Source of the DNA: Ochromonadaceae sp. CCMP2298 | Lineage: Eukaryota > Sar > Synurophyceae > Ochromonadales > Ochromonadaceae | Direction: 5' to 3' | Assembly: GCA_026770595.1 (NCBI GenBank) | Contig: MU633653.1 | Location: forward strand, 9,839 to 32,702 | DNA: 22,864 nucleotides | In this document: piece by piece, positions 7-21,892 of the stretch | How the letters are laid out: every line of letters starts with the position of its first letter | Numbering within the stretch: the stretch's first letter is position 1 | Position numbers and translations under genes: made by a program | The notes under the pieces: generated by a model | What the model was told of the DNA's origin: nothing | Database searches by the model: none | Seen by the model: the letters and a program-made list of their open reading frames with translations, nothing else

Positions 7-873
7 CTACAGCCCACACGCCTCTGCCAGCACGATCCGCGCCTGCTCCACATGCAGCGCCTCCACCATCCGCCCGTCCACCACACACACTCCCCTCCCA
101 TCCGCCACCGCCTCCGCCCACCCAGCCACCACCCTCCTCGCCGCCTCCACCTCCCACACAGAAGGCGCGAAGGCCGCATTGGCGATAGCCACCTGGCTGG
201 GGTGGATGAGGGTCTTGCCGTCGAAGCCAAGGTTACGTCCCTGCTCGCTTGAGACCCGCAGTCCCTCGGGATCGTTGAGCTCGATATGCACTCCGTCCAG
301 CACCAGCTTGCCCTCCGCGCGCGCCGCCAAAATCACGTGCGACATGGCGTAGAGCAGGGGCTGTCGACAGGGCGTGTGCTTGGCGCGCAGGTCCTTGGTG
401 AGGTCGTTGCTGCCAAAAACCAAACATTCCACAGAGCTGCTGCGCGCAATCGCAGCCGCGTTCAGCACGCCCCTGGCTGTCTCGATCATCGCCCAGATCG
501 GCAGCGGCTTCTGGCGGGTGCTGTTTTCAGCCAGGATCGAGTTGATCAGGTCGAACCCGATCTCGTCCTCCACTTTGGGCAGAATGACGGCGTCGACGTT
601 TTGAATGCCTGCGAGCATTTTCAGGTCCCCCTCGCCCCACTCGGTTGTGAAGGGACAGTTGACACGAACAATGTGGACGGGGCTGTTCTTGCGGTCCTCA
701 AGACTGCGCAAAAACTGATCCACAGTGCTGCGCGCCAGGATCTTGTTGTCTGGAGCCACAGCATCTTCGAGGTCAAACACTACCGCATTGGTGGGCAGGG
801 TGACGGCCTTGGCCAGAGCGCGCTGCTTGTCCCCCGGGCAGAAGAGCACCGACCGCAGCAAGCGCCTCGACAT
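7..873 (-). CDS. HpcH/HpaI aldolase / citrate lyase beta-like protein (CLYBL-type)
   Basis: A single uninterrupted frame of 288 residues that begins at the ATG ending at 873 and stops at 7-9. It has the hallmarks of the CitE/HpcH family: VLFCPGDK near the N-terminus, VFDLEDAV around residues 31-38, LPKVE, MIETARG, FGSNDLTKDLR and GKTLIHPSQV near the C-terminus. Family members are Mg2+-dependent TIM-barrel enzymes that cleave or form acyl-CoA thioesters such as citramalyl-CoA, malyl-CoA or citryl units; the length fits CLYBL-like proteins. An in-frame ATG 14 codons upstream (ending at 915) would add a short Ser/Arg-containing leader that could target the mitochondrion, as in animal CLYBL. The frame continues further upstream, but that part lies inside the foldback repeat at 928-1195 and is unlikely to be coding. 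The exact substrate cannot be told from the sequence. Confidence 0.88.
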   Translation of the reverse strand: MSRRLLRSVLFCPGDKQRALAKAVTLPTNAVVFDLEDAVAPDNKILARSTVDQFLRSLEDRKNSPVHIVRVNCPFTTEWGEGDLKMLAGIQNVDAVILPKVEDEIGFDLINSILAENSTRQKPLPIWAMIETARGVLNAAAIARSSSVECLVFGSNDLTKDLRAKHTPCRQPLLYAMSHVILAARAEGKLVLDGVHIELNDPEGLRVSSEQGRNLGFDGKTLIHPSQVAIANAAFAPSVWEVEAARRVVAGWAEAVADGRGVCVVDGRMVEALHVEQARIVLAEACGL

Positions 874-927
874 CCTAGAAAGAGTGATCCAGGGTGTTGA
901 ACAATGGCTGAGCATCAGAATTCTAGG

Positions 928-1195
928 TCCGGCCCCCCCCCCGCCAAACACCCCAAAAGGTCCCGGCGGACATGCATGTGACTCTGAGCTTTGCGCTATA
1001 TATGTGTTATCGGTACTAGTTACAGCGCCAGTCTTTCTGGGCATAGTAGGTTGTTGGAGATGCCCATTTTCAGAAACGACGGGGTGTGCTCTTGCCCAGA
1101 ATGACTAGCGCTGTAATTAGTACCAATAACAATATACAGCGCACAGCTCAGAGTCACATGCATGTCCGACAGGACCCTTTCGGGGGGGGGCCGGA
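928..1195. repeat. Foldback (inverted-repeat) element, MITE-like
   Basis: Two arms of about 100-115 nt, 928-1042 and 1093-1195, are imperfect reverse complements around a loop of about 50 nt. They share TCCGG plus a C-run at the outer ends, the block GGACATGCATGTGACTCTGAG, then an ATATA-rich stretch, and TTCTGGGCA at the inner ends. The arms carry scattered substitutions and a small indel near the C-run, as expected of an ageing foldback MITE. I see no target-site duplication. It lies just upstream of the lyase gene, so it may overlap that gene's promoter. Confidence 0.8.
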
Positions 1196-6356: not shown

Positions 6357-6760
6357 TGTTGTTGTTGTTGTTGTTGTATTAGTAGTAGTGGAAGTAGCAG
6401 TAGTAGCACAGATGTTAGAATATGTAACACAGTTGATGGAAGTAGAGGGTAGTAGGGTGAATAAAGCAGCGGGTAAAGGACAAAGCAGGGGATAGGGGAT
6501 GGGGACACCTGTCAACCGCGGAACTTGAGCACATCTCCGAATGCTCGAAGGCCCTGTGCATGACCCTCACTAGGGTAGGCGTGAGCACTACTGGCACCTC
6601 CCTTCCGCCCAGTAGTCTGCCGCATATCTCATCATACAGATCCCATGGGTCGGCGGTGCTGGCGAGGCTCACGTGCACTGCGGCCTGGACGGGGGGGCTG
6701 AGCTGCACAGGCAGGGAGCACATGATGTCGCAGAATGCCAGCACAAGCACGCCACTGCTG

Positions 6761-6804
<44 letters not shown>

Positions 6805-7862
6805 GCTGCTACCACCCCCACCGCCCCCACCACCTCCGTCGACCCTCCTGTGTAGTGCTAGCACAAGGCTGCTGAAAAGCCCCTGGTCCATCATCTCGCA
6901 ATTCCGAAGCACCACCACCAACCGCCCCCCCTGTACCTGTCCCCACTCCCCCTTGTCCTCCTGTGCCTGCGCCCCCCCCTGCGTCCCAATACCCTTCCCC
7001 CCCTGTCCCCCCAGGAGGGTCTCAATCGCCTGCATCGGCGCCTCTTGCACGTTAAGGGTGCGGTACAATGCCGGGTCGCTATGTGATACGTAAAGGAGGT
7101 CCTCTGCTATGCGCACCAGACAGTCGTGCGCAGACACGCAGCCGGTCATATGCGGGTCCGCCACAGACACTGGCCCCCTCCCAGACCCAGACCCCGACCC
7201 TGATCCTGATTCGTATTGTCCGCGCAGGCTGGGTACGAGTTCGTCGATGAGCAGGTCCCTGTCTGCGTCGCTGAGGCCTGCGTGGGGAAGTGGGGGGTTG
7301 GAGGGAGGGCGGGAGGGCGGGAGGGCGGGAGGGTGGGGTTAGGTGGGAGGGTAGAGGGTGGGAAGGAAGACGGGAGGGCGGGAGGGATGGCAGGAGGGCG
7401 GGAGGACAAGCAGTAAGCAGGGCGCAGGGTGTAGAATGCAGGGTGCAAAATGTAGGGTGCAGGGCAGGGTGTGGGGTGAAAACGACAGGCGCTCTTACTC
7501 GTCGTGATGAAGGACACGTGCACCTTTCCCTGCGGGCTGCACATCTGCCGCACCTCCTCGCACAGGCTCTTGTACAGCGTGGCATGGTAGAGGCGAAACA
7601 CCGACCGCACTGTGCTATCGATTGACTTCCGCCACCACTCTATCGCGTTGTACCTCGAGTCGAACGTGTCATCGGCCTTGAACAGCCGGTGGTGCGTGGC
7701 GGGACGGTAGTCGGCGGGCGGCGCGCGCTGGGAGAGTGTGCGGCAGAGCACCTCCGCGGGCGGATTCATGGCGACCACCGCTTGGAAGTAGGATGTCAGC
7801 AGTCCCTCCCAGAAGTGAGTGGCTCGCAGAGCACGGGGGCTCATCAGTTTGCAGTTCCACAT
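3704..7862 (-). CDS. ORC3: Origin recognition complex subunit 3 (ORC3), six exons
   Basis: Reconstructed exons, in order, are 7862-7499, 7277-6509, 6296-6215, 5981-5511, 5315-4351 and 4199-3704. All introns are GT-AG with matching phases, giving 1048 residues. ORC3 is the AAA+-like subunit of the complex that marks replication origins and helps load MCM in the nucleus. Support comes from the order of conserved parts. A degenerate AAA+ core contains GRLVVVLRNCEMMD. The run around the exon 2/3 joint (CSSSAVDRFKLCLQLHF) resembles the NFIKGLQLSLLEHF region of animal ORC3. A C-terminal NSNIHATFVTALKDP segment is followed by a winged-helix-like end with SQWFDKFV and RFANALHDIEKSGIIK. The protein is about 340 residues longer than human ORC3, mainly from low-complexity inserts: Gly9-Ser19 in exon 2, a Gln/Gly-rich part of exon 4 and Gly/Ala-rich stretches in exon 5. 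The start ATG at 7862 is the first in frame; an upstream exon cannot be excluded. Confidence 0.85.
4200..4350 (-). other. ORC3 intron 5
   Basis: GTAAGC donor and CGCGCAG acceptor. Most of it is purine-rich on the plus strand and so gives a long polypyrimidine tract in the transcript. Removing it joins AC with C in phase 2 and restores the C-terminal domain. Confidence 0.8.
5316..5510 (-). other. ORC3 intron 4
   Basis: GTGCGC donor and GGTGTAG acceptor, phase 0. It contains TA-rich and GACAGA microsatellite-like sequence. Confidence 0.75.
5982..6214 (-). other. ORC3 intron 3, with ACAGACAT microsatellite
   Basis: GTGCGC donor and CCCTCAG acceptor, phase 0. The stretch from about 6137 to 6185 on the plus strand is an imperfect tandem repeat of ACAGACAT/ACAGATAT. 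Confidence 0.75.
6297..6508 (-). other. ORC3 intron 2, with (TTG)n microsatellite
   Basis: GTGTCC donor and CCCACAG acceptor. It joins AG with A to make Arg just before the conserved FKLCLQLHF segment. The stretch from about 6326 to 6376 (plus) is a nearly pure TTG repeat, interrupted once by an extra T. Confidence 0.78.
6752..6843. repeat. Coding trinucleotide repeats (CTG/CTA and CCN) in ORC3 exon 2
   Basis: On the coding strand a run of GGN codons is followed directly by about 19 AGC/AGT codons, encoding Gly9-Ser19. The run mixes AGC and AGT, so it is not a freshly expanded pure repeat. It falls within the AAA+-like core region and probably forms a flexible loop. Confidence 0.9.
7278..7498 (-). 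other. ORC3 intron 1, with GGGAGGGC repeats
   Basis: GTAAGA donor and CACGCAG acceptor, phase 1. About 7298-7410 on the plus strand is built from GGAGGGCG-type units with many closely spaced GGG runs, so the non-template strand could form G-quadruplexes. Near 7415-7475 there are tandem GGGTGCAG/GTAGGGTGCA units. Confidence 0.8.
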
Positions 7863-8183: not shown

Positions 8184-8708
8184 ATGGCGTTGCTGCGCAG
8201 CTTCACGACAGGTTACCGTACGGTCTCAAGGGCGGGCAGAGGCGCTGATATCCGGCGAGCCCTCTCCACGAAACCATTTGACATGAAGGGCACGCTTCTT
8301 ACAGAGCCCGCGGTGAAAGTGGGGCTGTACGCTGAGGTGGAGCACACGTTCTCCCAAGACGCCGTGAACGTGTTCGCGGGACTCTGCGGCGACAACAACC
8401 CACTGCACTGCGACCCAGCATTCGCCAAGAACACCATGTTCGGGGGCACAATTGTGCACGGCATATTCGTGTCGAGTCTCTTTTCAACGCTATTCGGCCG
8501 CTCCGTGGCGGGGTCCATCTACGTCAGCCAGAATCTGGCCTTCAAGCGCCCCGTGCATGTGGGCGTGCCCGTAACCGCGAAGATGGTCATAGAAGCCATA
8601 GAGGATAAGAGGAAAGGGCAGCTGCTCATCTGCTCCACCACGTGCAGCTTGGCGGATGGGACTGTCGCCGTGACTGGAGAGGCGAGGGTGCTCCTGCCCT
8701 TCAAGTAG
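8184..8708 (+). CDS. MaoC-like (R)-specific 3-hydroxyacyl thioester dehydratase, mitochondrial HTD2-type
   Basis: A single-exon frame of 174 residues. The hot-dog-fold hydratase-2 motif is clear at residues 64-93 (FAGLCGDNNPLH, then FGGTIVHGI). The catalytic pair Asp70 and His75 keeps the five-residue spacing known in PhaJ-type R-hydratases. These enzymes dehydrate (R)-3-hydroxyacyl thioesters to trans-2-enoyl thioesters; HTD2 does so in mitochondrial fatty acid synthesis, and others supply beta-oxidation or PHA pathways. The first 30 residues are rich in Arg, Ser and Ala with no acidic residue before Asp22, like a mitochondrial presequence, which favours the mitochondrial FAS II role. The protein has normal single-hot-dog length. 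The start is the first ATG after the CT-rich leader. Its promoter is shared with ORC3. Confidence 0.9.
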   Translation: MALLRSFTTGYRTVSRAGRGADIRRALSTKPFDMKGTLLTEPAVKVGLYAEVEHTFSQDAVNVFAGLCGDNNPLHCDPAFAKNTMFGGTIVHGIFVSSLFSTLFGRSVAGSIYVSQNLAFKRPVHVGVPVTAKMVIEAIEDKRKGQLLICSTTCSLADGTVAVTGEARVLLPFK

Positions 8709-11993: not shown

Positions 11994-14509
11994 TTACGCG
12001 AGGTTGAATGCGCGCAGGGCGTTGGTGCGCGTGAGTAAGGCCAGCTCAGCGGGGTCCATGTTTAGTTTCTCGGCCAAAGCGACGCAGTGCAGATGCAGCA
12101 GCGCGGGCTCGTTGTACTGCGCGTAAGCCGCGCCCGCACCCGCGCCAGTGGCGCTGGGGTTGGGGTTGGGGTTGGGGCGTGATTTCTGTCTGAGGTGTGG
12201 GGGCAGCTGGTCCGGCGCGTCAGTTTCTATCAGCAGCCGGTCCCTAGGGACTGCCGCGATCAGCTTCAGCGTCTTGTCAGGAACCCGGCCCAGGGCAGCG
12301 AAGGAGAAGTACACGCCGGGGAGGGCAGCAAAGTCGGGAAGCATCTGCAGGGGGAGGCTGTTGCAGGAGTGCAGGATGGTGGACCACGGGAAATGCGCGG
12401 AGCCCACGTCAGAACCTGTACTAGGCTCTAGGGTTCTAGGCCCACTTCTTTTCGACACCTTGGGAGCTGCGGAAGTCAGGAGTGCGAGCATTCTTGCCCA
12501 GGCTCCGGACACGCAGTGTAGGGTGAGTGTGCGCTGGTGCTTGGCGGCCAGGCGTAGATGTGTGAGGACGATTGACTCCTGCTGTGCGTAGTCGCAGTCT
12601 TTTAAAATGGCCTTGTCAAGTCCGCACTCGCCAACGCCTGCGCAAGGAATGGCCAGCAGTAGCGCCTCTAGCTCGAGCTCCCATGCACCCAGTTGCAAAG
12701 ATTGCACACCAGCACCCGTAACCGCAACCGCACACGCATCTGCACCCGTAGCTGAGCCAGCCTCCGTACCCCCCTCCTGCCCCTCCTGCTGCTGCCTCTC
12801 CTGTTGGAGTTTGGCAATCCACCACGGGTGCAGGCCAAAATTGGGGACTACTGTTTCTGGGAACTGTGAGTGCAAGTCTCTAACGCGATCCCAGTCCTCG
12901 CCAGGACAGGTGCCGCACACAGCTACCCGCTGCACACCGTGCGTGCGCGCTAACGCCAGAGCGTCTGCTGTGTGGGTGTGCAGGGGCGGCAGCTGCAGGT
13001 GGCAGTGGGCGTCGAATAGATCGAGATGGTCTGGGGTTTGCATTGTGGCGCTGATAACTGCCTCCTGGTCGGCACGCGTGGGTGCGGGGGCCTCGACAAC
13101 GTGGGCAATATCCGCTCCCGCTTTACCCCCTCCACCCTCGCCGCCCTCCCCACCCATCTCTGCTTCGCTCTTAGCCTTCTCCCTCTCTGTCTTGCTGAGG
13201 TATGCGTGAAAGCTGCCCAGCCGCTTAGGCCGCGCCTGCTGCAGCTCACCCGCACCCAGGGCATTCACCACCACACTAGCCATCATGAAGCCCGCCACTC
13301 CTGTGGCAAAGCAGACGTTGCCGAAGGACACGTCGCACTTGCGGAGGCTGCCGACAGAGCCTGGGCCTAGGCTCGAGTCTGCGTCTGCATCTGAGCTATC
13401 GCTGTCACCCTCGGACAGAGCAGAGGATTCGTCATCATCAGAACCAGACCTAGTACCAGACTTCCCTGCCCCCCCTCCCCCCCCTGCCCCTGTCCCATCC
13501 TTGGGGCCTCCGCTCCTCTGGACACCCGTGGGCAGCGTGTGCACCGCCTTGACCCCCCACCTACGCGCCTTGCGCTCACTCGCACTGGGGTAGCCGCTAT
13601 GCTGGCGGAGCTTCTTTCTCACCCGCATTAGCAGATTGTCTCCTGTTGGATAAAAAGGAAATTGGTGATGGATAATCTACTGCTAACCTGCTACCCTATA
13701 TTGCCCTGCAATCAAAACAAGTTAACTAATCAGTAATAATCATTACCTGTAACATGTGCGAGGTCCGTGATCGTGATCAATGTAGGATCCAGCAGCCCCC
13801 CCACCCCACCCGAGGTAACTACCGGCGTGCCTGATCGCACACATGCGTCGATGATGGCTACCTTGTCGCTAACCCCGTCTGCAGCATCCACCACGTAGTC
13901 GAACCGCTGCAGGTATGTGTGGGCGAAGGCCGCATCAGCGTTGGCATCAGCGTTGGCGTCGGAAGCAGCACTGGAGGCACCAGCGTTGGCGGTGGCGGTG
14001 GCGTTGGCGGTGGCGTAGGCGTGGGGGCTCTTGTGCGTGAGCAGTTCCTCGGCGTTGTCTGGGCGCACGAAGTTCAGGGCCATCGTCACCTGCGCAGAGG
14101 GATTGATGTCCAACACGCGCGTGCGCAGCGCCTCCGCCTTGAACTTGCCGATTGTGCTGCTCTGCGCCATAACCTGTCTGTTCACATTGCTGATACATAT
14201 CTCATCCATGTCGATCAGGGTCAGCTTGCCCACGCCACTACGTGCTAGCGACTCCACAACCCACGAGCCCACCCCACCTAAGCCGATCACGCACACGTGA
14301 GCATCCGCCAGTCGAAGAAGGACCTCTCCGCCCCCGCCGTATGCACGTGCCACATTGTTGAATCTGGCGGTGTAATCCTCGCTCAGGTCTGAGGTCGCCA
14401 TCGTTGCCAGTTTCAAAGTTGCAGTGCTGCCTGCCCACCCTCCACCGTTCCTCGGCCGAAAGCTACGACCAAACGAGCTGAGCAGGCACAGGCTCAGGGC
14501 CACTTTCAT
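11994..14509 (-). CDS. Fusion of TcdA/ThiF-family tRNA t6A dehydratase with TatD-family metal-dependent hydrolase
   Basis: Exons 14509-13747 and 13642-11994 join across a 104-nt intron (GTAATG...AACAG, phase 1), giving 803 residues. N-terminal part: E1-like ATP-binding motif VIGLGGVGSWVVESLARSG (about 74-92), then LIDMDEICISNVNRQ, DYVVDAADGVSDK and TSGGVGGLLDPT. The joint reads DLAHVTGDNLLMRVRKKLR, the usual TcdA continuation, and the fold ends with VSFGNVCFATGVAGFMMAS (about 359-377). TcdA cyclises t6A37 to ct6A in tRNAs. After an acidic, Gly-rich linker a TatD domain runs from about 462 to the end: FDAHCH (His467, His469), NFGLHPWW, GVGECGLD, LHCV, ILHSC and ETDAPDQ. TatD enzymes are metal-dependent nucleases or deacylases. 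The TcdA tail and TatD lie in one exon without a stop. Residues 1-20 resemble a signal peptide with Phe (SFGRSFRPR), so organelle targeting is possible; a cytosolic start at an ATG ending at 14401 is the alternative. Confidence 0.85.
13643..13746 (-). other. Intron of the TcdA-TatD gene
   Basis: GTAATG donor right after GTTACAG; acceptor TTTTTATCCAACAG with a good polypyrimidine tract. Without splicing the first exon ends at a TGA a few codons later, in the middle of the TcdA fold. Confidence 0.85.
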
Positions 14510-15168
14510 CGCCCTCTCAACACCCACCTTCACCGACCCGTGGCCCACGTCTGTGTGGCTTATACTGTTACCTGACTCTGTGTCGATGTCGGGAAATGTG
14601 AAATCATCCAAGTTATGGATTTGCCATATACAAAAACCGTGGACATCTTTCATCGCAATCCGGCCTCCTGGTGAGCGGTTAGAAGCCGCGAAGCCGCGAG
14701 AATATGTAACTGAATGATTACGCGGGTTTTATAAAGACGTCTCCTATCTTATTGATTAAAACCCACTTGGAATAAACAATTTTTGGCGGGTAAAATTACC
14801 CCCAAGTAGCAGTACTTGTGGACTGGTCAAATGGCACTGTTTTGTTACGTATCGCAATATGCACTAAATGGCGCTGTTTTTGAGGGGGTGACAGTTTTTG
14901 AGTGGGGCACAATCGTTAACTTTACAGGGTAACTACCGGCAAGAGCATAGCGGACTGCTGAATCCCCTACTCGAGAGCCCCCGCGACCCCCCCCGCAATC
15001 GGAAATCCTGGATTTGAAATCCAAAATTGAGAGCGTAACGTACGTAACTTACAGTACACCTTTCAAGGGGGTGACCGACTACACTAAATCTTGCCGATAA
15101 CTTCTATGCGAGCGCCCCACATTCTTGTTTGTAGTTACAGTATGTACATATGAAGCCTAGCATGAACG
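14510..15168. other. Spacer upstream of TcdA-TatD and downstream of the AT-hook gene
   Basis: An alternative in-frame ATG for TcdA-TatD lies at 14653, so 14510-14653 is probably 5' UTR. Further up are a short duplication (AAATGGCACTGTTTT at 14829 and AAATGGCGCTGTTTT at 14866), a GAGGGGGTGACAGTTTTTGAG stretch (14881-14901) resembling part of the dispersed repeat, and copy 2 of that repeat at 15002-15087. No gene is supported. Confidence 0.6.
15002..15087. repeat. Dispersed repeat, copy 2 (downstream of the AT-hook gene)
   Basis: Matches 11851-11958 in order and orientation, with the strongest block ACACCTTTCAAGGGGGTGAC followed by CGACTACACTAA. It starts with an inverted repeat (GGATTTGAAATCC, 15010-15022). 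It lies about 80 nt beyond the stop codon of the minus-strand gene at 15169. Confidence 0.85.
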
Positions 15169-17108: not shown

Positions 17109-20100
17109 ATGGAGGCGGACAAGATGGAATCCCTGCTCGACCTGGACATATTGACGGCGGACAAGTCGACCATTTGCGTGCTGAAGGTGCTCGTCAAAAT
17201 ATGGGAGAACAAGCACAAGATGGAGGCCGTGGCAAACCTGGCGGACCTGCTTTGGTGAGAACGCACCCTGCTTGCGCCGTGCAGACACTTCTTATCGGTC
17301 TGCTCCTGCGCTGGTTGTGATTTACCCCATGCCATGCTGATGTTATTCTCTCTGCCTCGTTGCTTTTGGTGAGCGCTCGACATGCTCTGTATAACCATCC
17401 CGCGACCCCTCCCGCGCAGCAAATTCACTGACGAAAAGCGAGTCTTCGACGACATCGAGTTCTACATGCTGGAACTCGCCCACCTCATCATCCACCTCGA
17501 CCAGAACTCGCAAACGCAAGGTCTGGAGAAGTTGGCCATGGTTATTGCGCAGACGAGTATGCACAGCGCGCTGCAGCTGAGCTTCCTGTTCGCCGCAGCG
17601 CTGGAGGACTACCAGCCAGAGAGGGTTAGCGGCACACACAACGCCGCCTGCAACCCCTACTTCTTCCGGCGCTGCTCGAGGCTGCTGCAGGACCTCGAGC
17701 GCGCGGTGATATTCGGCAGCCAAACTCTGACGCACAAGGAGGAGACCGTATTGATGAAGCGCATGTCTATGGACCCACGTCAATCCATGGACGAAATGGA
17801 CGACGCCCAGCTAGGCAGCGAGCTGGCCACGCTCAAAAAGCACGAGATCGCCGCGCGTCTGTCTAGACACACCTCTGATAACTTCTACGACGGGGCGCTG
17901 AACGGCACGCTGCTGTTCAAGCGCAACACGCGCAAGAGCTCTCTGCACACGAAGGGCTGGAAACAGCGCCATTTCGTGGTGGATAATAGGGTGTTGCTGT
18001 GCTTCATGGAGCCCCACTCGGTCAACCCGCTGCGCACCATAGCCCTCCAGTCGTGCCACATCGAGGCCCACCACCTGGACAGTAAGTACGGCGAGACGCG
18101 GTTCGACATAATCAACTACTCGAACAACAACCGCTTCCAGCTGCGCGCGGAGGACAAGGAGCAGCGCGACAAGTGGGTGGCGTTTCTGCGCAGGTGAGAG
18201 ATGGCGCAGATGGGGTGGTGCTGTTGTGGGTTTTATATGTATAAATGCATCTTTCGCAGGACTGCTGCTGCGTCGTCGCTTCCAAACCTCAAATCTTCAC
18301 ACATACAAACCTCACCACACAACCGCAAACACACACAGCGAGGTGTCCGGCGCCCCCCAGGTGGTACTGGATGATATCGAGTGCTCAAGCCTGGGCCCCC
18401 ATTCCCCCTCTCCCACCACCACACAGGAGGGCGACGACTCTGCCTCCCTCTCTCCGCGCAAATGCCCCATCATAGAGGAGCGGGAGATGACGCCTGTGCA
18501 GCGCAAGCGCTTCAACTACTTCAAGCAGGTGCGTCCGACTTTGATTTGTATTAAACCCCAAAACCCCTAACCCCCCTCCTACATACAACCTATAAAACCC
18601 TCCCTCCTACATACTACCTACTACCTATTAAAACCCTCCTACATACTACCTACTACCTATAAAACAGGTACGCGTGCTGCTCACCAACATGACCAACATC
18701 TGCGAGAGGCTGCGGTTCAAGGACCGCACAGTGCGCAAGTTCTTCCTCAGACGGGACATGCACGACCTGCAGATCCCCCCCTTCTCCTACCTGCCCATTG
18801 CCGGGTCCACCGGGAGCTTCACGCAGGTGCCCCCCGCATCCCTGTATTCCCTGCCCTGTGCTGCCCTATCCTGTACTATTATGCCCTATACTGCCCTATC
18901 TGGCTCCACTCCCTGCCCTACATACACTACAGACCCTGAACACCCCCCTCCATCCACATCCCCCACCCTTTATCCAGATTCTGCGCTCCCTGCCCAACGA
19001 GGGCCACGCCTTCTCCACCAAGGCCCGCTGCCCCGCTTTGATGATCTTCGAACTGCAAGTGCATCCCCTGGGAATAGACACCGCCTCCTTCCTGGCCTCT
19101 GAGATGGAGCAGTATGAGGAGGAGCAGGTGATAGATCGCACAGTGGAGGTGCAATGCGGCAGCGCGTCCAGCTGGGAGAACGACTCCTCTACGGCTGAGC
19201 CGGCGTCGGCAGGTTCTGCTGACGACTCGCCCATACCCCAGAAAACCACGCGCGCTATTCCCCTGGGCGAGCAGGGGGGCACGCCGAGTGTTTGGCAGTC
19301 CACAGGCACGGGGTTGGTGCGACTGGGGGCGAGAAAATTGTCCTCTGTGCGCCACAGCCCCACCACCCCTAAGCCCCTCCCCGCCACTACCCAGTGCGCG
19401 GTGGCGGGGGCCATCGCCTGGGCGGGGAAGGCGGGGGGAAAGTCGGACGAGGTTGTCAAGTCGGACGATGTACAGCTCGATATGAAGGAGGAGGAGGGGG
19501 ACGGAGCCACAACAGGAACGCTGATCGGCGAAACCTTCAGCGAGCGCGCCACCCGCCTCAAGGCCAGCTCGCCCTTTGGAGAGCTGCCAGGTTGGAAGCT
19601 GGGCGGCCTGATCGCCAAGTCTAACGACGATGTGAGACAGGAGGTGTTCGTGATGCAGCTGATCCGCTACTACAAGACAGCCTTCGAGGACGCCCACCTG
19701 CCCTGCTGGCTGTACACCTACACGATCCTGTCTACCTCCCAGTCCACGGGTCTTATCGAGCTGATCCCCAACGCAGTCTCGCTGGACGGGCTGAAGAAAA
19801 TTGAAGGGTGAGGGGTGTAGGGAAACGGGGGAGAGCAGGGGGGTCTAACAGAGGAATATATTCCCTCATTCGCCTCATTTCATTATTCACTTATTCACTT
19901 ATTCTCTCCCTCCTTACCATTCCCCAGCTACCCCGGGTCCCTGCGCGCCTACTACGAGCAAACCTACGGCTTCGTCAAGGGAAAGCCCGAACCCCCCGCC
20001 TTCCGCGCCGCCCTCAACAACTACATCACCTCTCTCTCCGCCTACTCCGTCATCTCGTACCTCCTGGGCATCAAGGACCGCCACAACGGCAACATCATGA

Positions 20101-20525
20101 TCGACACTCTGGGCCACCTCATACACATCGACTTCGGCTTCGTATTCGGTCTGGCGCCCGGCAAGGCGGCATCTATGGAGCGCGCGCCCTGGAAGCTGAC
20201 CTGGGAGATGGTGGAGGTGCTGGGGGGGGCTAAGTCCCCAGACTACGAAGAGTACGTACGGCAGTGCGCGCTGGCCCTAGGCGTGGCGCGGCTGCACCAC
20301 AAGCAGGTGAAGGGCCTGATGGAGGTGATGACCTTCCACTCCTCCTACCCCGCCTTCCAGTACAACAATAACGCAATCCGGGACTTCGAGAGGCGGCTGG
20401 CCATCGACGTGCCTGAGAAGGACCTGGAGAGGTTGGTCAGAAGGCTGGTGTACAAAAGTTACGGATCCACAGGCACTTACTTGTATGACGAGTTCCAGCT
20501 GGCGACCAACGGGATCGCTGTGTAG
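17109..20525 (+). CDS. Phosphatidylinositol 4-kinase beta-type (PI4KIII-beta) with PH domain, six exons
   Basis: Exons are 17109-17254, 17420-18193, 18339-18528, 18668-18826, 18978-19807 and 19928-20525. All introns are GT-AG and all phases agree, giving 898 residues. It phosphorylates phosphatidylinositol at position 4 on Golgi and endosomal membranes. Order of parts: an N-terminal helical lipid-kinase-unique region (to about residue 115, ending ALQLSFLFAAALEDYQPE), a PH domain at about 208-307 (GTLLFKR, KGWKQRHFVVDNRVLLCF, FQLRAEDKEQRDKWVAFLRR), a Ser/acidic linker, then the catalytic domain from about 440. The catalytic domain shows AKSNDDVRQE with the ATP-binding Lys, the catalytic loop GIKDRHNGN (750-755 for DRHNGN) and the metal-binding IHIDFGF (DFG 768-770). 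The end, YLYDEFQLATNGI, matches the PI4K-beta C-terminus rather than PI3K or PI4K-alpha. A low-complexity insert of about 170 residues (about 450-620) interrupts the kinase N-lobe, at the site where animal PI4KB also carries a disordered insert. Confidence 0.92.
17255..17419 (+). other. PI4K intron 1
   Basis: GTGAGA donor and CCCGCGCAG acceptor, phase 2. It joins TG with C to give Cys-Lys-Phe. Confidence 0.8.
18194..18338 (+). other. PI4K intron 2
   Basis: GTGAGA donor and ACACACAG acceptor, phase 2. It directly follows the end of the PH domain, so the domain is bounded by a splice site. Confidence 0.8.
18529..18667 (+). other. PI4K intron 3, with tandem repeat
   Basis: GTGCGT donor and TAAAACAG acceptor, phase 0. 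It contains repeated units of the form AAAACCCTCCTACATACTACCTACTACCTAT (about 18595-18665). Confidence 0.85.
18827..18977 (+). other. PI4K intron 4, with CTGCCCTAT repeats
   Basis: GTGCCC donor and TTTATCCAG acceptor, phase 0. It carries several degenerate CTGCCCTATNCTG units (about 18850-18920), which are slippage-type repeats and pyrimidine-rich. Confidence 0.75.
19808..19927 (+). other. PI4K intron 5
   Basis: GTGAGG donor and TTCCCCAG acceptor with a TTATTCACTTATTCTC-type pyrimidine tract, phase 2. It joins GG with C to give Gly-Tyr-Pro-Gly of the kinase domain. Confidence 0.85.
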
Positions 20526-20854: not shown

Positions 20855-21892
20855 TCAGCCCTCCCGTGGCAGTGTCAGAGAGTACACCTCTCCGAGAGCG
20901 CTCACATCCGTGATGTTACTACAGCGAGTCAGATCCAGTGTATGTACGCTTCCGAGAGCGCTCACATCCCTGATACCCCTACAGCTACTAAGAGTTAGCT
21001 TATGCACGCCTCCGAGAGCGCTCACATCCGTAATACCCTGACAGCCCCATAGAGTCAGCGTATGCACACCTCCGAGAGCACTCACATCTCTGATACCCTC
21101 ACACCAACTAAGATCCAGCATATACACGCCTCCGAGAGCCCTCACATCCGTAATATCCTGAGAGCAACGAAGCCTCAGCGTATGCACGCCTCCCAAAGCA
21201 CTTACATCACTGATACCGTCACAGCAACTAAGATCCAGTGTGTGCACACCTCCGAGAGCACTCACATTCCTGATACCCCTACAGCCTTCAAGATCTAGCG
21301 TATGCACGCCCCCGAGAGCACGCACATCCGTAATATTCTCACAGCAACTTAGATTCAGAGTATGCACACCTCCAAGAGCACTCACATCCGTGATATTCGG
21401 ACAGTGAGTAAGATCCAGCGCATATACGCCTCCGAGAGCGCTCACATCCATGATACACCTACAGCCGGTAAGATTCAGAGTATGCACGCCTCCAAGAGCG
21501 CTCACATCCGTGATACCTCTACAGTCACAAAGATTAACTGCGTACACGCCTGCCAATGCATCCACATTTCCTACATGCTTTCTTGTCCTCATCGTGACGC
21601 TCAAACGAGACCCCAGATATGGAACCAAGTCGAAGCTTGACCTTCCCTCGAAGCACGGTGGCACTGAGTGGCGCTGGGTGCGGAAGACCCAATAAGAAGT
21701 ATCATCGAGCTCGACATCCCATCTGCCCAGGTCGTACCGCAGCCGCAGCAGTTTGCGGGAGCATGCCGAAAGTGCGAAGATATTCTTGTTCGTGAGAAAT
21801 GGCGTGACGGCCAGTGCGAAAGGGCTGCCGAGAAGTTGTGCCCAGTCGGGCTGCTCGGGCTGCGCCATCCTGCAGGAAATCGATGGTCCCAT
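20855..21892 (-). CDS. F-box-like leucine-rich-repeat protein with 20-residue repeats
   Basis: A single-exon frame of 345 residues from the ATG at 21892; an alternative ATG at 21868 begins MAQPEQPD. Residues of about 20-55 (SPFALAVTPFLTNKNIFALSACSRKLLRL) resemble an F-box: a short helix, then the Leu/Cys-rich ACSRKLLRL segment. From about residue 108 to the end there are 11 full repeats and one partial repeat of exactly 20 residues, with consensus DVSALGGVHTLDLSxCxxIT. This is an LRR of the cysteine-containing or BspA-like kind. Such proteins usually bind partners through the curved repeat surface; with an F-box they select substrates for SCF ubiquitin ligases. Near-identical VSALGGVHTL cores with variable surface positions point to recent duplication or homogenisation. 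The target is unknown. Confidence 0.85.
   Translation of the reverse strand: MGPSISCRMAQPEQPDWAQLLGSPFALAVTPFLTNKNIFALSACSRKLLRLRYDLGRWDVELDDTSYWVFRTQRHSVPPCFEGRSSFDLVPYLGSRLSVTMRTRKHVGNVDALAGVYAVNLCDCRGITDVSALGGVHTLNLTGCRCIMDVSALGGVYALDLTHCPNITDVSALGGVHTLNLSCCENITDVRALGGVHTLDLEGCRGIRNVSALGGVHTLDLSCCDGISDVSALGGVHTLRLRCSQDITDVRALGGVYMLDLSWCEGIRDVSALGGVHTLTLWGCQGITDVSALGGVHKLTLSSCRGIRDVSALGSVHTLDLTRCSNITDVSALGEVYSLTLPREG
20861..21568. repeat. 60-bp tandem coding repeat array (about 11.7 units)
   Basis: The period is exactly 60 nt on the minus strand, in frame with the LRR protein. The most conserved part on the plus strand is CTCCGAGAGCRCTCACATCC. Units differ mainly in the half coding for LxLxxCxxI. 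There are no spacers, so it is not a CRISPR array. Confidence 0.95.

Follow-up and report, generated by a model that had tools for sequence, protein, structure and literature searches.

Fusion of a TcdA-type tRNA dehydratase with a TatD hydrolase in algae, and recurrent tcdA-tatD gene pairs in bacteria

Introduction

TcdA converts t6A, by adenylation and cyclisation, into the hydantoin ct6A (PMC13139853), and E. coli TatD has been described as a 3'-5' exonuclease acting on ssDNA and RNA (PMC10085689). TatD is very widespread and its cellular substrate is unsettled, and the reason why bacteria cyclise t6A is poorly understood. E. coli TcdA (CsdL), the tRNA t6A37 dehydratase, has no TatD domain and no long insertions, unlike the protein encoded in the window, the whole stretch of DNA analysed here (22,864 nucleotides of contig MU633653.1 from Ochromonadaceae sp. 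CCMP2298). Likewise, the TatDs of solved structure (S. aureus 6l25/2gzx, E. coli YjjV 1zzm and YcfH 1yix, human TATDN3 2y1h) are stand-alone, unlike the fused TatD.

The presence of the fusion across several algal lineages and the recurrent pairing of the two genes in bacteria tie the substrate of TatD and the purpose of ct6A together, and make the fusion a candidate ct6A enzyme for plastids. The domains are known; what appears to be new is their conserved pairing, with a predicted second activity. A full-text literature search, with most subscription journals outside its coverage, found no paper on TatD with ct6A or with a ThiF fusion among those listed.

Gene structure and genomic setting

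A two-exon nuclear gene is predicted from the sequence on the minus strand of 11994-14509, and its spliced frame encodes 803 amino acids from the ATG at 14509. An alternative in-frame ATG at 14653 would give 851 amino acids, the next upstream in-frame stop being at 14731. The 803-residue product contains, in order, a signal-like N-terminus, a complete TcdA-type t6A dehydratase, a linker and a complete class II TatD hydrolase. The gene is composed as follows.

13747-14509, minus strand: exon 1, encoding the N-terminal extension and the ThiF/E1-like TcdA core (residues 1-254)
13643-13746, minus strand: intron of 104 nt, GT...CAG (GT-AG), with in-frame stops inside; its removal preserves the frame
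11994-13642, minus strand: exon 2, a single open frame encoding the TcdA C-terminal part, the linker and the TatD domain (residues 255-803 and stop)

Pfam ThiF matches exon 1 with 128 bits (cut-off 28), and TatD_DNase matches exon 2 with 127 bits (cut-off 27) over profile positions 1-253 of 253. The initial annotation described a complete TcdA followed by TatD in the same exon, with the RKKLR and FGNVCFATGVAGFMMAS segments sharing the exon of TatD. The latter is correct, as the C-terminal third of TcdA lies with TatD in exon 2, but TcdA as a whole is split across both exons. In the whole genome (11.2 Mb, 724 contigs) this gene is the sole TatD place found, and two of the five ThiF matches are exon 1 of the same gene.

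Other open frames surround the gene in the window. An HpcH/HpaI aldolase-citrate lyase family protein is encoded at 7-1044 (minus strand) and a MaoC-like dehydratase at 8184-8708 (plus strand); a simple-repeat tract at 6415-7170 lies within an open frame, giving runs of Gly and Ser, or of Leu on the other strand. Frames at 17382-20525 (plus strand) carry a PH domain (PF00169) and a phosphatidylinositol 3/4-kinase domain (PF00454), perhaps as exons of one gene, and 20855-21892 (minus strand) encodes a leucine-rich-repeat protein with near-identical DVSALGGVHTLDLS-like repeats (Pfam LRR_4, LRR_6).

The TcdA half

The following features were located in the TcdA half.

14261-14284, minus strand: ATP-binding loop GLGGVGSW (residues 76-83)
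13919-14038, minus strand: Ala/Asn/Asp-rich insertion in the TcdA core (about residues 158-197); most of 18 aligned fusions lack it or have a short version
13605-13619, minus strand: RKKLR segment, beginning of the TcdA C-terminal part
13350-13532, minus strand: Gly/Asp/Ser-rich insertion in the TcdA C-terminal part (about residues 292-352)
13275-13325, minus strand: FGNVCFATGVAGFMMAS, the last TcdA segment, in which the C-terminal helix begins

This half has the ThiF/E1 fold, with an ATP loop of the form GxGGxG and the core residues D100, N108, R111, Q112, K124 and D208. The C-terminal half specific to TcdA, not that of the MoeB/ThiF type, is present, and the best PDB sequence matches of the spliced TcdA half are E. 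coli TcdA structures. Among the 67 fusions in which all ten TcdA sites are readable, 63 are identical to the window protein at these sites. The top NCBIfam family for exon 1, which was scanned rather than the spliced whole, is TcdA (NF011696) at 181 bits, below the equivalog cut-off of 304 bits; the same family is top for four whole fusions (189-212 bits) and for a bacterial TcdA of the tatD-linked type (228 bits), all likewise below 304. Judged from these sequence features, the TcdA half would convert t6A to ct6A in tRNA.

The linker and the TatD half

The remainder of the protein comprises the following features.

13023-13241, minus strand: linker between the domains; the equivalent region of a relative (P0010) is predicted to be disordered
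13041-13043, minus strand: in-frame ATG just before TatD (residue 455), a candidate separate TatD start
12003-13016, minus strand: TatD_DNase domain, full length
12999-13007, minus strand: metal ligands H467 and H469 (HxH, class II TatD as defined in PMC10085689)
12627-12629, minus strand: metal ligand E593
12516-12518, minus strand: metal ligand H630
12369-12371, minus strand: metal ligand H679
12219-12221, minus strand: metal ligand D729

All six metal ligands (HxH, E, H, H, D) are intact in 78 of 78 readable fusions, the window protein included. The linker has a median length of 87 residues between profile edges and can be as short as 6 (P0119). The best PDB sequence matches of the TatD half are TatD-family proteins, and its best structural matches are TatD-family deoxyribonucleases. 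With NCBIfam TatD (TIGR00010, cut-off 206 bits), exon 2 scores 80 bits and four whole fusions 76-108 bits, all below the cut-off.

Two narrower assignments were discarded. Identity with QatD of the anti-phage Qat system is contradicted by the score of exon 2, 48.5 bits vs the NCBIfam equivalog cut-off of 230. W528, the residue after HP, was considered as a mark of TcdA-linked TatDs; it occurs in 51 of 82 linked and 15 of 34 unlinked proteins (Fisher p 0.10), and the pattern also caught stray matches. In profile-aligned TatDs, HPH or HPD is found in none of 77 readable linked proteins vs 11 of 34 unlinked ones, a contrast to which we give no weight because it tracks phylogeny and our own choice of unlinked genes.

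Distribution of the fusion in algae

A protein database of about 5.8 billion entries was searched three times, first with the spliced protein as seed and afterwards with two alignments of related proteins, each search scoring only the roughly 8,000 candidates that shared most words and the third providing the best 120 of 131 matches. When profiles of TcdA and TatD built from an 18-sequence alignment were applied, both domains were found in at least 94 of the 214 different proteins listed, with TcdA first in all 95 fusions including the window protein. In 84 of these 95 the TcdA match runs past profile position 300 and the TatD match begins ahead of position 12, and some of the others are fragments. 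The claim of a single TcdA-TatD gene in the initial annotation stands, the spliced frame being intact and both domains complete. The fusion is regarded as genuine because these other proteins have the same domains in the same order; the open frame between the halves alone is not decisive. For the same reason, the architecture is not unique to this gene, and the statement in that annotation that no described protein was known to have it is not supported: the architecture is widespread in algae, and a JGI annotation already names the pair ('tRNA A37 threonylcarbamoyladenosine dehydratase/Tat protein secretion system quality control').

The nearest relatives of the window protein are P0001-P0003. 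Labelled carriers of the fusion include Tribonema minus (P0047), Heterococcus (P0046), Prymnesium (P0116) and a protein with a Bigelowiella label (P0052), and P0051, P0066, P0073 and their kin are taken by us to be from prasinophyte green algae. TcdA without TatD is seen in the diatom Nitzschia inconspicua (P0175) and in P0181 and P0194, its two companions in the TcdA tree. Another possible tRNA-modification fusion was seen in a 459-residue metagenome protein (P0054), which joins a PF02677 domain, presumably the QueH family of the queuosine pathway, to TcdA.

N-terminal extension and probable location

The window protein begins with an extension of the organelle type.

14393-14509, minus strand: N-terminal extension of about 39 residues, signal- or transit-like in composition, moderately hydrophobic, with no acidic residue in the first 30

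Its peak 14-residue hydropathy of 1.55 lies narrowly below the counting threshold of 1.6. Targeting features were scored in 69 fusions, chosen for an initial Met and an ATP loop recognised by the search pattern. An extension of at least 25 residues was scored in 53 of the 69, although at least P0078 and P0081 were mis-scored, without the loop's true start. In 46 of the 69 the extension goes with two or fewer acidic residues in the first 30, a composition fitting plastid import, and 27 of the 69 pass the hydropathy threshold. By eye, hydrophobic N-termini are found mostly in the stramenopile- and haptophyte-like groups and Arg/Ser/Ala-rich ones in the green-like group. The type of N-terminus expected for plastid import differs between these groups in just this way. 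Light-harvesting proteins (PF00504) account for 21 matches in the host genome, some being exons of one gene, and the host is therefore very likely photosynthetic. The composition fits an earlier reading of the N-terminus as organellar, import into the plastid being the better guess and a mitochondrial location a possible one.

A chloroplast review lists t6A for chloroplasts and leaves ct6A off the list, which counts against a ct6A enzyme in the plastid. The same review describes the enzymes behind t6A37 in Chlamydomonas as unknown. The algal TcdAs without TatD (P0174, P0175, P0181, P0194) also have N-termini that look signal- or transit-like by eye, from which ct6A may be a wider plastid feature.

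Pairing of tcdA and tatD in bacteria

Bacterial loci were scored with both profiles, adjacency being defined as tatD within 700 nt of tcdA, and weaker TcdA-like places were left out of the counts. In Bdellovibrionota, the phylum of the Halobacteriovorax genome G001, tatD adjoins tcdA at 51 of the 62 TcdA-type places listed in 114 genomes (E 5.7e-65 or better): tatD precedes tcdA in 38 and follows it in 13, with a median gap of 85 nt. In Verrucomicrobiota, adjacency is found at 10 of the best 39 TcdA places (E 1.2e-71 or better) among 115 genomes, all tail to tail, and in Pseudomonadota, the phylum of G004, at 4 of the best 30 among 150 genomes, 3 tail to tail and 1 with tatD before tcdA. The tail-to-tail neighbours (10 in Verrucomicrobiota, 3 in Pseudomonadota) do not form one operon. 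TatD was not found beyond 700 nt in the flanks of the scored loci, many of which extend 1.5 kb or less, so TatD may have been missed at contig ends. By a rough estimate rather than from a null, tatD would lie beside tcdA by chance in well under 1% of genomes with 2-3 TatD genes among about 3,000. This recurrent pairing supports the functional link between TcdA and TatD that had been suggested for the algal gene alone.

A pattern-scan set of 80 loci with flanks of up to 6 kb (64 gammaproteobacterial by title, 13 from Verrucomicrobiota and 3 of the Bdellovibrionota type) contains the pair once, in Halobacteriovorax (L081, the same place as L091 among the 62). The pair is therefore not obligatory, in view of this count and of the TatD-less TcdA of the diatom and its two close relatives. 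At the Halobacteriovorax locus (L081:161-1610), tcdA and a short TatD of 223 residues lie on one strand, and the listed tatD start at 939 overlaps the tcdA end at 949. In Pseudomonadota and Verrucomicrobiota, genes of a second, shorter TcdA subfamily (about 250 residues) also neighbour tatD, in most cases immediately downstream (L149-L152, L212-L221, L229-L231); these loci were picked for visible adjacency and serve as examples, not as a rate. Three of them were scanned, two from Pseudomonadota and one from Verrucomicrobiota, and TcdA is their top NCBIfam family, below its cut-off. No ready-made TcdA-TatD fusion was seen in the bacterial loci examined; a candidate, L143 (G062), proved to be a long TatD frame in which another N-terminus, presumably pseudouridine-synthase-like, precedes TatD, followed by a separate TcdA-like gene.

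History of the fusion

Trees were made from hand-picked rows, with bacteria of three phyla only: 112 rows for TatD and 110 for TcdA. For the TatD tree, bacterial sequences were kept if the match spanned at least 150 residues, which retained 5 of 12 chosen Bdellovibrionota tcdA-then-tatD loci. This tree places the fused TatDs in a group with those of Verrucomicrobiota (54 rows, 95/84); their union in a single clade has weak support (52/55), and its two component clades are strongly supported (99/97 and 100/96). For TcdA, a clade (92/91) unites 30 of the 31 fused proteins with 4 unfused algal ones and leaves the Bigelowiella protein P0052 outside, and the diatom TcdAs adjoin the group of the window protein (88/69). 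These diatom neighbours, like the fusions in xanthophytes, agree with a stramenopile host. Both one early fusion with later losses and two fusions would fit these trees. The linked TatDs are spread over separate, well-supported TatD clades. The two genes were therefore probably brought together, or brought together again, on more than one occasion; alternatively, an ancient tcdA-tatD pair may have undergone rearrangement and local loss.

Proposed function and alternatives

From the directly observed fusion, its conservation, the intact sites in both halves and the recurrent bacterial pairing, we infer a plastid location, an activity for each half, a shared tRNA substrate and a direction for the TatD reaction. 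The reading that we favour, and consider probable, is an algal bifunctional enzyme, most likely of the plastid, in which a TcdA dehydratase and a tethered TatD act on the same tRNA. The TcdA half would adenylate and cyclise t6A37 to ct6A in tRNAs reading ANN codons, and the TatD half, an HxH-class two-metal hydrolase with an intact active site on a flexible tether, would act on the tRNA passed on by TcdA. Its most likely role would be that of a phosphodiesterase, for 3'-5' trimming or for degradation of wrongly modified or damaged tRNA; hydrolysis of the modified base itself ranks second. DTD3, which deacylates D-aminoacyl-tRNA and is said to be TatD-like, provides a lead for the TatD half. 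This enzyme is used by cyanobacteria. Points against the favoured reading are that known TatDs are described mainly as DNA enzymes (PMC10085689), and that neither half reaches its NCBIfam cut-off (181 of 304 bits for TcdA in exon 1, 80 of 206 for TatD in exon 2).

A conceivable, if doubtful, alternative is that TatD reopens the ct6A ring by hydrolysis to give t6A, or clears epimerised or mis-adenylated products, which would place writer and eraser on one chain. Hydantoinases belong to clan CL0034, which counts in favour of this. TatD (PF01026) is assigned to the same amidohydrolase clan (PMC5133447), ct6A in tRNA is a hydantoin (PMC13139853), and RudS is a precedent for a tRNA eraser made by fusion. 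Moreover, the tatD link is to TcdA itself, in two TcdA subfamilies. On the other hand, the ligands HxH, E, H, H, D match those of TatD nucleases, TatD-family deoxyribonucleases are the top structural matches, and we know of no TatD that opens a hydantoin. Somewhat more speculative is the extension of this idea to both the plastid polypeptide and the bacterial gene pair, by which TatD would be the missing hydrolytic partner of ct6A (ring opening to t6A, or repair of epimerised or wrongly adenylated t6A); if so, ct6A would be a reversible or proofread mark.

A role in DNA is also rather unlikely: the TatD half would serve plastid DNA as an AP endonuclease or 3'-5' exonuclease and be joined to TcdA only for shared targeting. 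AP endonuclease activity is indeed described for human TATDN1 and TATDN3 and for the three TatD paralogs of E. coli, and 3'-5' exonuclease activity is reported for TatDs (PMC10085689), but shared targeting does not explain the bacterial pairing, which involves different TatD clades. We give little credence to TatD as a mere addition to the tRNA-binding surface, in the manner of the HNH-like C-terminal domain of yeast Tcd, whose probably inactive nuclease-like domain matters for tRNA binding (PMC13139853): the strict conservation of the six ligands in 78 of 78 readable fusions argues against a binding-only role, as does a linker that is usually long (median 87 residues) and disordered in the model predicted for P0010. 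Finally, the in-frame ATG at 13043 immediately before TatD might suggest that two adjacent genes, or a mistake in assembly or annotation, lie behind the fusion; with at least 94 other proteins carrying the fusion, and linkers down to 6 residues between profile edges (P0119), such an artefact is hardly credible.

Comparison with known systems

Yeast Tcd1 and Tcd2 resemble the fusion in having an extra C-terminal nuclease-like domain beside a TcdA-type domain (PMC13139853). They are unlike it in that the extra domain has a probably inactive HNH-like fold rather than that of TatD, and they are located on the outer mitochondrial membrane, facing the cytosol, which differs from the proposed location of the fusion in the plastid. 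TsaN (TsaD-TsaC-SUA5-TcdA; 8ide) also carries TcdA on one chain with other enzymes (PMC13139853); in this case, however, TcdA is joined to the steps that make t6A, the title of 8ide names no TatD, and the protein acts on nucleotides or nucleosides rather than on tRNA, as described in the same source. RudS (TudS-DUF1722) likewise combines two domains in a tRNA enzyme, and one of its parts reverses a modification, but its domains are unrelated and its substrate is 4-thiouridine. Bacterial tcdA-tatD pairs bring the same two families side by side, though as separate genes in several orders.
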